A stretch of 12,762 nt of DNA from positions 1 through 12,762 of the forward strand of contig JAJYJB010000073.1 of NCBI GenBank assembly GCA_021789735.1, read 5' to 3'. Under the pieces are notes generated by a model. That model searched no databases, was not told the DNA's origin, and saw nothing but the letters and a program-made list of their open reading frames with translations. A program made the position numbers and the translations under genes. This stretch comes from Nitrospirota bacterium. GTDB taxonomy: Bacteria; Nitrospirota; Thermodesulfovibrionia; Thermodesulfovibrionales; JdFR-88. Each line of letters opens with the position of its first letter. The first letter of the stretch is position 1. Positions 5,185 through 11,791 of this stretch are shown in pieces.

Positions 5185-6921
5185 TCATTTCAGGGTCTTT
5201 ATGTAAGCTATGATCGCATCGACCTCCTTGTCGGTCAGCGGTATCTTGGGCATTATCGGCGGATAGCCCTTGACGACCCAAACGTCGGGATGCTTTATCA
5301 TGAATTCCAGGTACTCTTTGTCCACGGTTTTGACAACGGGCTTCCCGTTCACCATTACGGTCACCTTGTTCCCGTATATTCCCTTATAGCTTGGCCCGAC
5401 TTTCGGCTGGCCCGTTGTCGTGTGGCAGCCGAGACAGCCCTTGCTCCTGAGGAGGGCAAGCCCTTCGCTTGCCTGCGGGGCCGGTCCAACGGCCGGAGCG
5501 GCCTGCGTTTCTTCACCTGCCGCATGGCCCGGTTTTCTCCGGGTCGCCAGAAAAGCCAGCAGATCTTCGGTTTCCGTGGTGGAAAGGATGTGCGCGAATA
5601 CCGGCATGTTGTACGCGCCGTTCATGATGCGCAGCGTCATCTGCTGGCGGGTAAGCTGGTCCGCAATGTAGCTCAGGTCCGGCCCTCTTTTCCCTCCATG
5701 GCCGTCTATCGTATGGCAGAAGAGGCAACCCTTCTCGTTGAAAACCATTGCCCCGTCATACACGGGTCCGGAAGAGGCCCCTATGATATCTGCGGTCAGG
5801 GGGGCGGCGTTGAAGCGGGGGGACCAGTCGGCATTTTTCCCCGCCAGGCTCATCGCGCCAAGACCGAAGGCTATGAATATTACAGCGGCCACACCCAAAG
5901 GTCTCCGCGCCGGATGCCGCTCCCCGAAGCTGCTTACCAGCGGGACCGCAATAAGGACCAGGATGATCAAAATGGGCGCCGCAACCATGACATAGTTCTC
6001 TAAGGCATGAGGCAGCAGGGCCAGCATGGCGTAATACCACAAGAGATACCAGTCCGGGCGCGGCTTCGCATTTATCAGCGAAGGGTCGGGCGGCCTGTCA
6101 AGCCTGTGCGGGCCAAATATCCAGGCAAAAAGCAGGATGCCCATGACCATCGCGAGGGCGAAAACCAGGTCGCGCCAGGCGGCTTCGGGCCAGAAAGGGA
6201 CGCCTTCCTTCCGCAGCATGTCTTCATATTCCGGCCGGTACGTCGCGGGATCTGTCCTGCGCCCTGGCACCGGGGGTTCGGACACCCCGTTGCGCAGCAC
6301 CAGGTAAAGGTGCAGGCCGGCAAACGCGAAGATCAGGAGCGGGAAAAAAACGGCATGAACCGCAAAGATCCGGCTCAAGGTAGAGGAGCCAACTACATAG
6401 CCGCCCAGGATGAAGTGCGCAAGCCACGTGCCTATCAGGGGGACGCGCCCGGCCATCTCCGCAGCCACTACCAGCGTCCATAACCCGCTCTGGTCCCAGC
6501 GCATTGCCTGGCCTGTGGCGGCCATCAATACCGTGAACACCCAAAGGAACACGCCGCTGTACCAGTTCACTTCCCGCGGGAACTTGTAGCTGCCGGTCAG
6601 GAAAACCCTGCAGAGATGAATGGTGATCATAACGACCATGGCCGATGCTCCCCACCAATGCATGCCCCTGAGGAAGCCGGCCAGCGGAGATCTGTCAATG
6701 TGCTTCAGGCTTTGATAGGCGCCGCCCGTCGAGGAGACGTAGACCGTCAGCAGGCCGGTCCCCGTGACCACCTGCAGGATAAAAGCCGTCAGGACCGCGC
6801 TGCCGAAGACATATTTCCACCTGGCCCCGGGCGGGACCGGATGGCCGGCCTGCTTTTTGATCATTCCCGCCAGGCCGGTCCTGATGTCCAGCCATTGCGA
6901 AAATCTTTTCAACAGTTTCAT
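5185..6921 (-). CDS. Cytochrome b fused to a diheme cytochrome c (bcc-type quinol:cytochrome c oxidoreductase core)
   Basis: This 578-aa fusion holds a complete cytochrome b and two cytochrome c heme sites. The b hemes are ligated by H88/H102 and H189/H204. The 14 residues between the second pair are typical of b6-type proteins, and PDWY (289-292) stands in for the PEWY quinol-site motif. After the last membrane helix (about 341-360) come CLFCH (399-403) and CLGCH (496-500), with M439 and M557 as likely distal ligands. The two c domains are joined by an Ala/Pro-rich linker (about 461-485). The c domains would lie on the outer face of the membrane. The protein would oxidise quinol with the Rieske protein encoded 22 nt upstream and pass electrons through its own c hemes to the caa3 oxidase of the same operon. 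The fused diheme part replaces a separate cytochrome c1. It is the last gene of the operon and has a GGGGAG ribosome site. Confidence 0.95.
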   Translation of the reverse strand: MKLLKRFSQWLDIRTGLAGMIKKQAGHPVPPGARWKYVFGSAVLTAFILQVVTGTGLLTVYVSSTGGAYQSLKHIDRSPLAGFLRGMHWWGASAMVVMITIHLCRVFLTGSYKFPREVNWYSGVFLWVFTVLMAATGQAMRWDQSGLWTLVVAAEMAGRVPLIGTWLAHFILGGYVVGSSTLSRIFAVHAVFFPLLIFAFAGLHLYLVLRNGVSEPPVPGRRTDPATYRPEYEDMLRKEGVPFWPEAAWRDLVFALAMVMGILLFAWIFGPHRLDRPPDPSLINAKPRPDWYLLWYYAMLALLPHALENYVMVAAPILIILVLIAVPLVSSFGERHPARRPLGVAAVIFIAFGLGAMSLAGKNADWSPRFNAAPLTADIIGASSGPVYDGAMVFNEKGCLFCHTIDGHGGKRGPDLSYIADQLTRQQMTLRIMNGAYNMPVFAHILSTTETEDLLAFLATRRKPGHAAGEETQAAPAVGPAPQASEGLALLRSKGCLGCHTTTGQPKVGPSYKGIYGNKVTVMVNGKPVVKTVDKEYLEFMIKHPDVWVVKGYPPIMPKIPLTDKEVDAIIAYIKTLK

Positions 6922-6943: not shown

Positions 6944-7465
6944 TCAAGCGATAGGTATTGGACGGGTCTGCAGTTCCACCTGCCCGCCGCTCACCCTGAC
7001 CTGGAAGCGCTGCAGAGGGAAGGGAGCGGGACCCGCCGCCACAGTCCCGTCCGCATAGTAAACGCTGCCATGACAGGGACACATGAATAGTTTTGAGGAA
7101 GGTTCCCACCTCACAGGACAGCCAAGATGGGAGCAATTGAGAACGAAAGCGATAAAATCCGTGTCCCCGACCCTTCGCACCCAGGCCCCTGTCTTTGCCG
7201 TTTCCCCCGCCCAGGCCGTCGCCGAAGGGTTCGTGAAGGAGACCAAGACCGTATCACCGACGGTAAACCGGTTTACCGGTCCCACGGATACCCACTGCCG
7301 CTGCATCTTTTGAAAAGCCGGCTCCAGAATGTAGCCGATCACCGGCAGCCCCATGGCAAGCGTTATCAGGCTCCCGGCAGCAACTCCCAGCAGGCCCAGG
7401 AAACGGCGTCTGCCCGAGTTTTTTTCCCCGGACTGGCCGGCCATATTTTCATTGCTGTTTTTCAT
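6944..7465 (-). CDS. qcrA: Rieske [2Fe-2S] protein of the bc complex
   Basis: The protein is 173 aa. The N-terminus carries a twin-arginine signal (SGRRRFLGLLGVAAG) that runs into a single hydrophobic anchor ending near residue 46, as in Rieske proteins exported folded by Tat. The cluster motifs are CSHLGC (C111, H113, C116) and CPCHGS (C129, C131? numbering: CP at 129-130, CHGS at 131-134), giving two cysteine and two histidine ligands plus the disulfide pair. A GPAPFPLQRF proline loop follows. It would take one electron from quinol and deliver it to the c hemes of the fused cytochrome b/c. The ATG has an AGGAG site 10 nt upstream. The 76-nt gap to the upstream small gene contains a short AT-rich stretch but no clear promoter. 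Confidence 0.95.
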   Translation of the reverse strand: MKNSNENMAGQSGEKNSGRRRFLGLLGVAAGSLITLAMGLPVIGYILEPAFQKMQRQWVSVGPVNRFTVGDTVLVSFTNPSATAWAGETAKTGAWVRRVGDTDFIAFVLNCSHLGCPVRWEPSSKLFMCPCHGSVYYADGTVAAGPAPFPLQRFQVRVSGGQVELQTRPIPIA

Positions 7466-7541: not shown

Positions 7542-7769
7542 CTAGCCGCTCGCTACCCATTTTACGATTGCGATAATAAAGAGGATTATTCCCGGTATGC
7601 CTATGATCTTTGATGTCAGGACGCCCAGTCCCATAAACGTCGCTCCCAGTGAAAGCACGAATGGCCAGTAAGTCGGAGAGGGAATGAATTCCGGCTTCGG
7701 GATGCTCCAGCCTTCGGGCCGGCCTTCCGGCCTTCCCGGCGCGTTTTGATTTTCATTGTGGTCCGGCAT
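7542..7769 (-). CDS. Small two-helix membrane protein of the oxidase cluster (subunit IV-like)
   Basis: The protein is 75 aa from the ATG at 7769, which follows GGAGAAAGGA and overlaps the 3' end of ctaG by 17 nt. The alternative upstream ATG at 7793 would lie deeper inside ctaG. A hydrophilic, Gly/Pro/Glu-rich N-terminus leads to PKPEFIPSPTYWPFVLSLG and two hydrophobic helices with a short turn. The P-x-PTYWPFVLSLG motif is like that at the start of small subunit IV-type proteins, or of C-terminal extensions of subunit I, in caa3/aa3 oxidases. A structural or assembly role in the oxidase is inferred from this motif and the gene's place between ctaG and the Rieske gene. No cofactor ligands are visible. 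Confidence 0.7.
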   Translation of the reverse strand: MPDHNENQNAPGRPEGRPEGWSIPKPEFIPSPTYWPFVLSLGATFMGLGVLTSKIIGIPGIILFIIAIVKWVASG

Positions 7770-8592
7770 ATCCCGGTCCTTTCTCCGCCACAACTTTTTT
7801 TCCAGGATCTTCTTCTTTTTCCCGGTACAGGCGGCTTATCACAACAAGCAGCGCCGAGAAATACAACAGGCCGCCGATGATCCACATGAACATGCCGCCC
7901 AGGTTGAGGTCCTCCTGCGGGGTCAGCTTCCAGCCCGTGCGGATCAACTGGAAGATGCCGGCGCCGTTGGCCTGGCGCATGTACGCGGGATAGTATCCAA
8001 GTGGCGCAAAGGTCAGCAATATCCCCAAAACCATATTGGCCGCCATTGCGATAAAAATATAAATCGACCCGGCCACCGGCGAAAGCCGGTGCGATGGCAG
8101 CGGGGTGAAAATGGGCCACCAGAATATGGTCCCTGTAACCAGCATGCTCAGGTGTTGCAGCGCGTGGACCCAATCGCTGTTCAGCGCGGCGTTATAGAGC
8201 GCCGGCAGGTGCCAGAGCCAAAAAGTCCCCACCGCTAGTAGCAGGGCCACAACCGGCCTGCGGAGGGACCGCTCCGCCCTGGCCGGAAATTTGATGGACA
8301 AAAGCGACCGGACCGGCCCCGGCGGGAGGCCCAGCAGGAGCAGCGGCGGCACGGCCAGTTCAAGCAGAATATGCTCCAGCATGTGCGCGCTGAAAAGGTA
8401 ATTGTCGCCAAGAAAATCGAGAGGCCCGATCAGCGTAAGCAGCATCAGGACCACGCCCGAGGCGAAATACGCAGTCCTGCCGTTCATCCGGAAGCGGACT
8501 GCCCACAAATAAGCCAGGAGAAGGGCCGCGCATCCGATGATCACTGTGGGCTCAAAGTCCCACGCTTCCCAAAAAAGCTGTCCGTTGGTCAT
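7753..8592 (-). CDS. ctaG: CtaG-family caa3 oxidase assembly factor
   Basis: The protein is 279 aa, starting at the ATG at 8592 (MTNGQLFW). This ATG overlaps the coxC stop as ATGA, so translation is probably coupled. The open frame extends upstream but only as an out-of-frame reading of coxC. It is a polytopic membrane protein with about seven hydrophobic segments. It has the family's FSAHMLEHILLELAVPP motif (H70, H74), a WHLPALYN segment (127-134), H143/H147 and a TPQEDLNLGGMFMW segment near residues 214-227. CtaG_caa3 proteins (PF09678) are needed to assemble caa3 oxidases, probably at the copper centres; the histidines fit copper handling. No Cox11 or Sco gene is seen in the window, so CtaG may be the only local copper factor. 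Confidence 0.92.
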   Translation of the reverse strand: MTNGQLFWEAWDFEPTVIIGCAALLLAYLWAVRFRMNGRTAYFASGVVLMLLTLIGPLDFLGDNYLFSAHMLEHILLELAVPPLLLLGLPPGPVRSLLSIKFPARAERSLRRPVVALLLAVGTFWLWHLPALYNAALNSDWVHALQHLSMLVTGTIFWWPIFTPLPSHRLSPVAGSIYIFIAMAANMVLGILLTFAPLGYYPAYMRQANGAGIFQLIRTGWKLTPQEDLNLGGMFMWIIGGLLYFSALLVVISRLYREKEEDPGKKVVAEKGPGYAGPQ

Positions 8593-10879: not shown

Positions 10880-11791
10880 TCATTTCAACCCTTCAAGATA
10901 GGCCGTCAGGTCCTTTATCTGGTCGTCTGTAAGGCCCAGGTCGGGCATATGAACGCCCTTTTTTATGGCCTGGGGGTTCTTGAGCCACCTGGCCAGGTTT
11001 GCCGGTGTGTTTGGAAGCGTGCCCGCGGCCAGGGTTTCCCGGCTTCCCAGGTGCGTCAGGTCGGGGGCATACCCGGAATAGTGGCAGACCACGCAGTTTT
11101 TCTTTGTAAAGATTTTCAAGCCCTGTATTGCCTGCGGCGTGGACGGCGGCAGGGCCGGTTGCTGCTGGTGCCTGAGCCATGCATTGAAGTCCGCGGGAGA
11201 CTGCGCAAAGACCCTGATCCTCATGTCGGCATGCCCCATGCCGCAGAAGGAGTTTCAGGCTCCCAGGTATAGCCCCGGGCGCGTGATGGTCAGCCAGAGA
11301 TAGTTCGGATGTCCGGGGATAATGTCGATCTTCTGCCCGAACGACGGGACCCAGAAAGTGTGGATTACGTCTGCGGACTTGAACCTGAGGAGCAGGCGTT
11401 TGCCCACGGGCAGGTGTATCTCATTGGCCGCCGTCACGCCCGATGGGGAATAGTGCAGCTCCCACCACCATTGGTGCGCTGTCACGGTAAGGTCCGGCTT
11501 TTTGCCGAATACCGGCGGATTCACCCGGGCCATGACCCAGAAAGTGACAACAAGGAGCCCGGTGACAATAAGGACGGGAATGGATATCCAGAGGACTTCC
11601 AGCCTGACATTCTCCGTGAACTGCCTGGGCTCCCGCCCCTCCCGTCGGCGGAACCTGATGGAGGCGTACGCCACCAGCCCCGCGACGGTGAAAAAGATAA
11701 AGGCCCCGACGCCGGTCATTATATAAAACGATCTGAGAATATCGGAGGCCTGCTTTGTTCCCGGGCTCAAAACAGATGTGAAAGTATCCAT
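10880..11791 (-). CDS. coxB: Cytochrome c oxidase subunit II with C-terminal cytochrome c; in-frame UGA read as selenocysteine at the CuA site
   Basis: Read through the UGA this is a 303-aa caa3-type subunit II. Two N-terminal helices (about 21-44 and 65-88) anchor a cupredoxin domain with QWWWELHY (107-114) and H144. The CuA loop reads U179-N-S-F-C183-G-M-G-H187-A-D-M190. Spacing from H144 equals that of classical subunit II, so UGA replaces the first CuA cysteine. A cytochrome c domain follows, with CVVCH (233-237) and M282 as likely distal ligand. Without readthrough there would be a 178-aa protein lacking all but one CuA ligand. A protein restarted at the ATG at 11239 would have no export signal for heme attachment. 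The gene's own final stop is also TGA. The CuA glutamate is serine here. GGAGG precedes the ATG. A nonsense mutation or base error is the alternative. I see the layout directly; selenocysteine is inferred. Confidence 0.85.
11218..11251 (-). promoter_or_regulatory. Candidate bacterial SECIS element in coxB
   Basis: Numbering the mRNA from the first base after UGA, bases 4-8 (UCCUU) pair with 33-37 (GAGGA; one U-G pair). Bases 9 and 32 mismatch, 10-11 pair with 30-31, A29 bulges, and 12-17 (CGGCAU) pair perfectly with 23-28 (AUGCCG). The 5-nt apical loop GGGGC spans 18-22. A stable upper stem, a loop opening with G residues and a loop about 18 nt past the UGA are the known features of bacterial SECIS elements recognised by SelB; the E. 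coli fdhF element has nearly the same spacing. The whole hairpin lies inside coding sequence, as bacterial SECIS elements do. No folding energy was computed. Confidence 0.7.
11255..11257 (-). other. Recoded UGA codon (proposed selenocysteine, residue 179 of CoxB)
   Basis: The triplet reads TGA on the - strand. The preceding codons give RPGLYLGA and the following codons NSFCGMGHADM, in the same frame and both conserved subunit II sequence. TGA differs from the cysteine codons TGC and TGT by one base. TGA also ends coxB, coxC, ctaG, the Rieske gene, the cytochrome b/c gene and the oxidoreductase, so recoding must be specific to this site. Confidence 0.8.

Follow-up and report, generated by a model that had tools for sequence, protein, structure and literature searches.

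We analyzed a 12,762-nucleotide stretch of DNA (hereafter, the window), which carries on its minus strand coxB, the gene encoding a caa3-type cytochrome c oxidase subunit II (positions 10880–11791). The coxB frame runs from an ATG at 11791 to a TGA stop at 10882–10880, which is followed by an in-frame TAA, and contains a single interruption, a TGA at 11257–11255, behind which 124 codons remain open. Two coxB pieces, listed as proteins of 178 and 119 aa, share this one frame and are separated by that TGA; read through it, the gene encodes 303 residues. The original prediction that two frames with one TGA between them join into a full caa3-type subunit II was thus borne out: with residue 179 written as C, the 303-residue product scored 173.8 bits against the TIGR02866 cut-off of 147.7. 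The protein has two transmembrane helices, a CuA domain, and a C-terminal cytochrome c, with the Pfam domains in the order PF02790 (COX2_TM), PF00116 (COX2), and PF00034 (Cytochrom_C). The best PDB fold match of its AlphaFold model (mean pLDDT of 82) was 2yev_B; as pLDDT was below 50 at residues 183–185, the model does not display the metal site.

The interrupting codon (11255–11257, minus strand) is codon 179 of coxB. In the alignment to the Thermus caa3 subunit II (2yev), residue 179 falls on the first CuA cysteine, as had been predicted, and we therefore denote it U179, a predicted selenocysteine (Sec) at the first bridging position, placed by the frame and the alignments. The codon of the CuA ligand H144 lies at 11360–11362 and those of C183, H187, and M190 lie within 11222–11245, as assigned from the alignment to 2yev and from a 45-row alignment in which residue 179 of the window was entered as C; the CVVCH haem c site (residues 233–237) of the C-terminal domain lies at 11081–11095, all on the minus strand. 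In the 45-row alignment, the four predicted CuA partners and the haem residues C233, C236, and H237 were intact and invariant. That is, the CuA ligand set H, C, C, H, M is encoded in the window by standard codons at four of five places, with TGA at the fifth, and the predicted continuity of the frame through the CuA loop and the CVVCH domain was confirmed. The absence of TGA as a stop, which would mark a code using TGA as a sense codon, was not observed, since TGA terminates six of the 13 window frames that we took as genes, coxB included; the original prediction had counted at least six.

Next to coxB on the same strand lie coxA, encoding oxidase subunit I (PF00115; 9142–10848), which adjoins coxB in seven relatives (L001–L007), and, as assigned by Pfam and gene order, coxC, encoding subunit III (PF00510; 8589–9149), and a ctaG-like gene for a caa3 assembly factor (PF09678; 7753–8619, start provisional). 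A protein of 83 aa with no Pfam match is encoded at 7542–7793 (minus strand), between ctaG and the Rieske gene; its position is conserved in the seven relatives at 56–88% identity. The order coxB, coxA, coxC, ctaG, and 83-aa protein gene is common to all seven. Genes for a Rieske iron–sulphur protein (6944–7465) and a cytochrome b (5185–6921), both on the minus strand, follow in six of the seven, the contig of L001 stopping before them. Cytochrome b and two c-type haem domains are fused into a single protein of 578 aa, encoded beside the Rieske and oxidase genes. Judged from their sequences, the Rieske, cytochrome b, and oxidase genes evidently form a compact bc–oxidase gene cluster. Elsewhere in the window, a frame of 235 aa (1925–2632) had no Pfam match.

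The original prediction proposed a search of other genomes for coxB with TGA at this codon beside the same neighbors, and we found four such loci. In the genome collection, coxB DNA was readable at 39 relative loci, 38 of which reached the CuA codon; L008 ended before it, its contig stopping inside coxB. Not counting the window, the CuA codon in these 38 loci was TGA in four, TGC or TGT in 34, and TAA or TAG in none. TGA was found in L001, L004, L005, and L007, with 96%, 75%, 71%, and 69% protein identity to the window, respectively. All four are loci of metagenome-assembled genomes, and their coxB neighbors are in the same order as in the window. L001 and the window are 94.9% identical at the DNA level over a single alignment of 4473 columns. 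By their record titles, L001 and L004 are Nitrospirae, L005 is from Deltaproteobacteria, and L007 is from Syntrophobacteraceae; the records with TGA at this codon thus name two phyla. The Cys-form L003 falls in the same order as L001 and L004, and the Cys-form L006 shares another order with L005 and L007.

Protein searches gave the same picture of a conserved cysteine column and of proteins ending or starting around it. Among the best 120 of 3997 relatives listed for the full product, all 116 uninterrupted proteins had cysteine at the column, and the remaining four ended just before it. When the 178-residue N-terminal half was searched, at least 16 proteins among the best 120 of 327 listed ended exactly before the codon, at 74–98% identity. 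In the C-terminal search, 22 of 46 proteins (P0144–P0165, the window's own included) started at M185 or M190 and had the same end; once weaker matches were included, 27 of 45 proteins examined started at one of these residues. By this sequence evidence, coxB is evidently one gene that gene callers have split in many assemblies. As in selenoprotein genes, the TGA was aligned with a conserved cysteine of the homologues, and it was kept in relatives with the frame conserved behind it.

Genome searches with the CoxB protein at E 1e-60 gave matches in 3/39, 1/395, 9/395, 3/176, and 1/46 genomes, and no additional UGA coxB was found in these sets. Among the nine matching genomes of 395, TGA stood at the CuA codon in G004 alone; G732 had a TGA elsewhere. 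In the phylum of G004 (395 genomes), a COX2 domain scan gave matches in 80 genomes; a stop lay inside the matched stretch only for the coxB of G004 and for one partial match, in G732. Contig 19 of G732 held another COX2 match with two TGA codons. No CoxB relative was found in the viral collection, and none above 60% identity in the plasmid collection. In a distant Cys-form coxB (L010:6001–6906), a single in-frame TGA occupies a position of the cytochrome c domain that is usually Trp; like the two TGA codons of the G732 match, it may reflect error, decay, or recoding. In addition, L005 contained a second subunit II gene (L005:823–1464) about 4 kb upstream of its UGA coxB. Both of its CuA cysteines are replaced by Ser and a ligand His by Tyr (SQQYSGKGYASM); from these replacements, this subunit II has evidently lost its CuA site, as in quinol oxidases.

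We then compared the two parts of the gene. Across ten pairs of UGA coxB genes, pN/pS was 0.20–0.44 after the TGA versus 0.06–0.38 before it; the values after the codon therefore indicate purifying selection on the part behind the stop. A second interruption was absent from all five UGA coxB genes (the window, L001, L004, L005, and L007). That is, the further stops or frameshifts in close relatives that the original prediction had named as signs of decay were not seen in any UGA-form relative with readable DNA. In G001 and G002, the UGA coxB was the sole COX2 match (E 0.001), and therefore no intact spare coxB was found in these two drafts.

A SECIS-like hairpin lies at the expected distance behind the UGA. 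In the window, CGGCAUG-GGG-CAUGCCG (11227–11243, minus strand) forms a 7-bp stem with a 3-nt apical loop that starts with G, 18 nt from the UGA. All five UGA coxB genes have the hairpin GGCAUG-GG(G/A)-CAUGCC, whose loop lies 18 nt behind the UGA; the loop is GGG or GGA, and the energies of the isolated stems were −9.0, −9.0, −9.0, −12.4, and −6.6 kcal/mol. The bSECIS model, as given in the Fig. 2 legend of PMC13188914, has a loop of 3–9 nt with G in the first two places, a stem of 4–16 bp, a spacing of 16–37 nt, and a minimum free energy of at most −7.5. The window and three of the four UGA relatives agreed with this model in every respect, and the isolated stem of L007 (−6.6) missed the energy limit. 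Among controls, −7.5 was reached at 196 of 5000 random positions and at nine of 193 TGA stops; i.e., the bSECIS hairpin test is not very selective. One of the 18 Cys loci scored (34 were available) passed it, L014 with −12.1, at another spacing. When five selD genes with an in-frame UGA, taken from these and sister genomes, were scored by the same script, two reached −7.5; the hairpins of coxB are therefore not weaker than those found in a known selenoprotein.

A 59-nt stretch of the window (11205–11263, minus strand) folds at −29.1 kcal/mol (z of −3.9) into a longer stem whose base includes the UGA, and none of 200 shuffles folded as well. In the four UGA relatives, the corresponding z-scores lay between −0.95 and −1.33; in the Cys relatives L002, L003, L006, L009, L011, L012, and L014, they were +1.21, +0.85, +0.13, +1.14, +1.09, +1.22, and −2.12, respectively. 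Because the window alone is strong and the distant Cys-form L014 reached −2.12, this score by itself fails to separate the two forms. The stem is invariant, and therefore the hairpin has no covariation. Degenerate stem codons were unchanged in four of four cases, and codons of conserved residues were changed in 89 of 171, which is suggestive of synonymous constraint over the hairpin and too weak to stand alone. The Cys-form coxB of L006 (TGT) retains the UGA-form hairpin in place (L006:3969–4021, −6.6), in a genome with selB and tRNA-Sec; from its sequence, it looks like a possible SECIS relic left after a change from Sec to Cys.

The search for selA, selB, selC, and selD that had been proposed for the same genome was made in eight genomes of relatives (G001–G008), of which G001–G004 are the UGA-coxB genomes. 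Among these four, selA was present in all, selB in all, tRNA-Sec in three, and selD in three. Across the eight, selA exceeded the cut-off in every genome, selB was full length and over the cut-off in seven, and selD was over the cut-off in six (not G003 and G005). ARAGORN found tRNA-Sec (tca) in G001, G003, G004, G005, G007, and G008 and not in G002 or G006; in G002, none was found beside selB either. In the nearest relative, G001, selA, selB, selC, and selD were all present, with selD in pieces. Each UGA-coxB genome thus contained selA and selB and lacked at most one other part, an absence that we attribute to draft quality. Scanning six frames beside selB in G001–G004 revealed no further sel gene. 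All six selD genes over the cut-off have an in-frame TGA of their own, that of G001 in a piece; in five genomes (L071, L072, L073, L075, and L076), selD with in-frame TGA has the known selenoprotein form. Among the Cys-form genomes, G005 and G007 contain selB and tRNA-Sec. We rejected G006 as an example of a Cys-form genome without SelB, because it has a C-terminal selB piece on a short contig, along with related GTPases, as well as selA and a selD with TGA. Since these Cys-form genomes hold all or some of the genes, the machinery is necessary yet uninformative on the form of coxB.

Could the TGA be a sequencing or assembly error, or a chance nonsense mutation in a coxB that has become a pseudogene? 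The relatives are metagenome assemblies, some with titles that mention low coverage, as such an account would have it. However, an identical TGA at four other loci of 69–96% protein identity, at least 16 proteins (among the best 120 of 327 listed) that end at the same residue, purifying selection on the part after the codon, intact neighboring genes, and the position of UGA coxB as the sole COX2 match in two genomes make error or decay scarcely credible. Nor do we give much credence to translation as two polypeptides, in which synthesis would stop at the UGA and restart at M185 or M190 to give a membrane and cupredoxin half and a cytochrome c half. The CuA loop would then be cut between its ligands, and the residues SFCG between the UGA and the restart, which would be untranslated, are identical in the five UGA forms read in DNA. 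Both halves are listed by gene callers, but the start that they choose varies between M185 and M190 among relatives. The M190 codon is preceded, at a distance of 9 nt, by a GGGG run; in the window, neither codon has an AGGAG in the 15 nt before it. Given these observations, such a restart is extremely improbable.

Reading of the UGA as Cys or Trp, whether through a reassigned code or a suppressor tRNA, would suit the cysteine found at the homologous residue. We consider it highly unlikely, because TGA terminates six of the 13 window frames, selA and selB occur in the four UGA genomes and tRNA-Sec in three of them, and SelD, a known UGA selenoprotein, is encoded in G002, G004, and, as a piece, G001. 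A further reading accepts Sec but not as a copper ligand: the selenol would serve redox or sulfide handling in a subunit II without CuA. It has precedents in the many selenoproteins that are thiol redox enzymes, according to PMC13188914, and in the subunit II paralogue of L005 that has lost both cysteines. We regard it as very unlikely all the same, as the five UGA forms read in DNA have kept both the haem c site and the remaining ligands of CuA, and share gene order and sequence with their nearest Cys relatives.

The position of the codon, the conservation of the TGA, the open and selected frame, the conserved hairpin, and the presence of Sec genes in UGA relatives are established from the sequences. 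From these, we infer insertion of Sec by the ribosome, production of the protein, and binding of both coppers. The coxB UGA is very probably translated as Sec by means of SelB, tRNA-Sec, and the hairpin, which would yield a full-length subunit II with a predicted Cu2(S)(Se) CuA center. In the proposed route, SelA, SelB, tRNA-Sec, and SelD would place Sec at the UGA with the aid of the downstream hairpin, and the full-length subunit II would hold a bridging Cu–Se–Cu unit in CuA. Electrons from the bc-type complex encoded next to the oxidase would then enter subunit II at its fused cytochrome c domain and reach the oxygen-reducing subunit I through the mixed S/Se CuA. Compared with a thiolate, a selenolate is more acidic and more easily reduced back. 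We speculate that a selenolate may keep the site copper-loadable and repairable in cells that meet oxygen intermittently. Such a benefit is suggested by analogy with the Sec of formate dehydrogenase and [NiFeSe] hydrogenase, which PMC13188914 links to resistance to over-oxidation.

CuA is among the best studied electron-transfer sites, and to our knowledge its two bridging thiolates are taken as universal. CoxB and selenoproteins are each already known kinds. The window CoxB resembles the caa3 subunit II of TIGR02866, e.g., that of Thermus thermophilus (PDB 2yev), in domain order, CuA ligands, fused cytochrome c, and fold, and differs from the Thermus protein in having TGA for the first bridging cysteine and a SECIS-like hairpin. 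Like bacterial bSECIS selenoprotein genes, such as selD of these and sister genomes, it has TGA in place of a conserved cysteine, Cys homologues, a hairpin with a G-start loop 16–37 nt downstream, and Sec genes in the genomes of its relatives. Unlike known bSECIS selenoproteins, whose sites serve thiol redox chemistry, Mo/W, Ni, or transport, the CoxB site would be one of copper electron transfer. As in [NiFeSe] hydrogenase and Sec formate dehydrogenase, a metal-bound Sec is predicted in energy metabolism; those enzymes bind Ni or Mo/W, whereas the Sec of CoxB is predicted to bridge two coppers. A laboratory azurin with a selenocysteine copper ligand has reportedly been made, and its Cu–Se bond in a cupredoxin fold would match the one predicted for CoxB. 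However, Sec azurin is engineered and has a single type 1 copper, whereas CoxB is natural and is predicted to have CuA.

The original prediction knew of no natural Sec-containing CuA, and our searches agreed with it. No CoxB or CuA protein was among the 119 families or subfamilies of Table 1 in the 2026 inventory (PMC13188914), and no Sec-specific CoxB model was among the matching models of NCBIfam release 20.0. Likewise, no CuA or CoxB selenoprotein was found in the open-licence literature, represented partly by the top matches listed (including PMC9312934, PMC7435645, PMC12013277, PMC5029168, and PMC8318568). Within the scope of this inventory, NCBIfam, and the open-licence literature, UGA CoxB is best read, from its sequence, as a putative new selenoprotein family with the first natural Sec ligand of CuA known to us.

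We compared the distribution of the two forms on a tree made by a quick method from 99 N-terminal domain rows, 18 UGA and 81 Cys; in 13 UGA rows, the stop was deduced from where the protein ends, without DNA. UGA and Cys forms were interspersed, with at least 11 label changes as drawn, of which well supported branches force one. The tree suggests repeated exchange between the two forms. According to PMC1794560, rare selenoproteins arose, in most of the families that have them, from Cys ancestors in organisms already able to decode Sec, and an origin of this kind would fit the UGA CoxB family.

Such genes are split by gene callers in public databases, and their recognition would lengthen the list of selenoprotein families and place selenium in a terminal oxidase. 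A natural Cys/Sec series, at about 70–98% identity, would offer a test of the effect of the bridging atom on potential, covalency, reorganization energy, and oxidation resistance. It is likely that a natural mixed-chalcogen CuA, Cu2(S-Cys)(Se-Sec), stands at the electron entry of a haem–copper oxidase; this would amount to selenium-dependent oxygen respiration in Nitrospirae and Deltaproteobacteria (as recorded), repeatedly exchanged with the Cys form.
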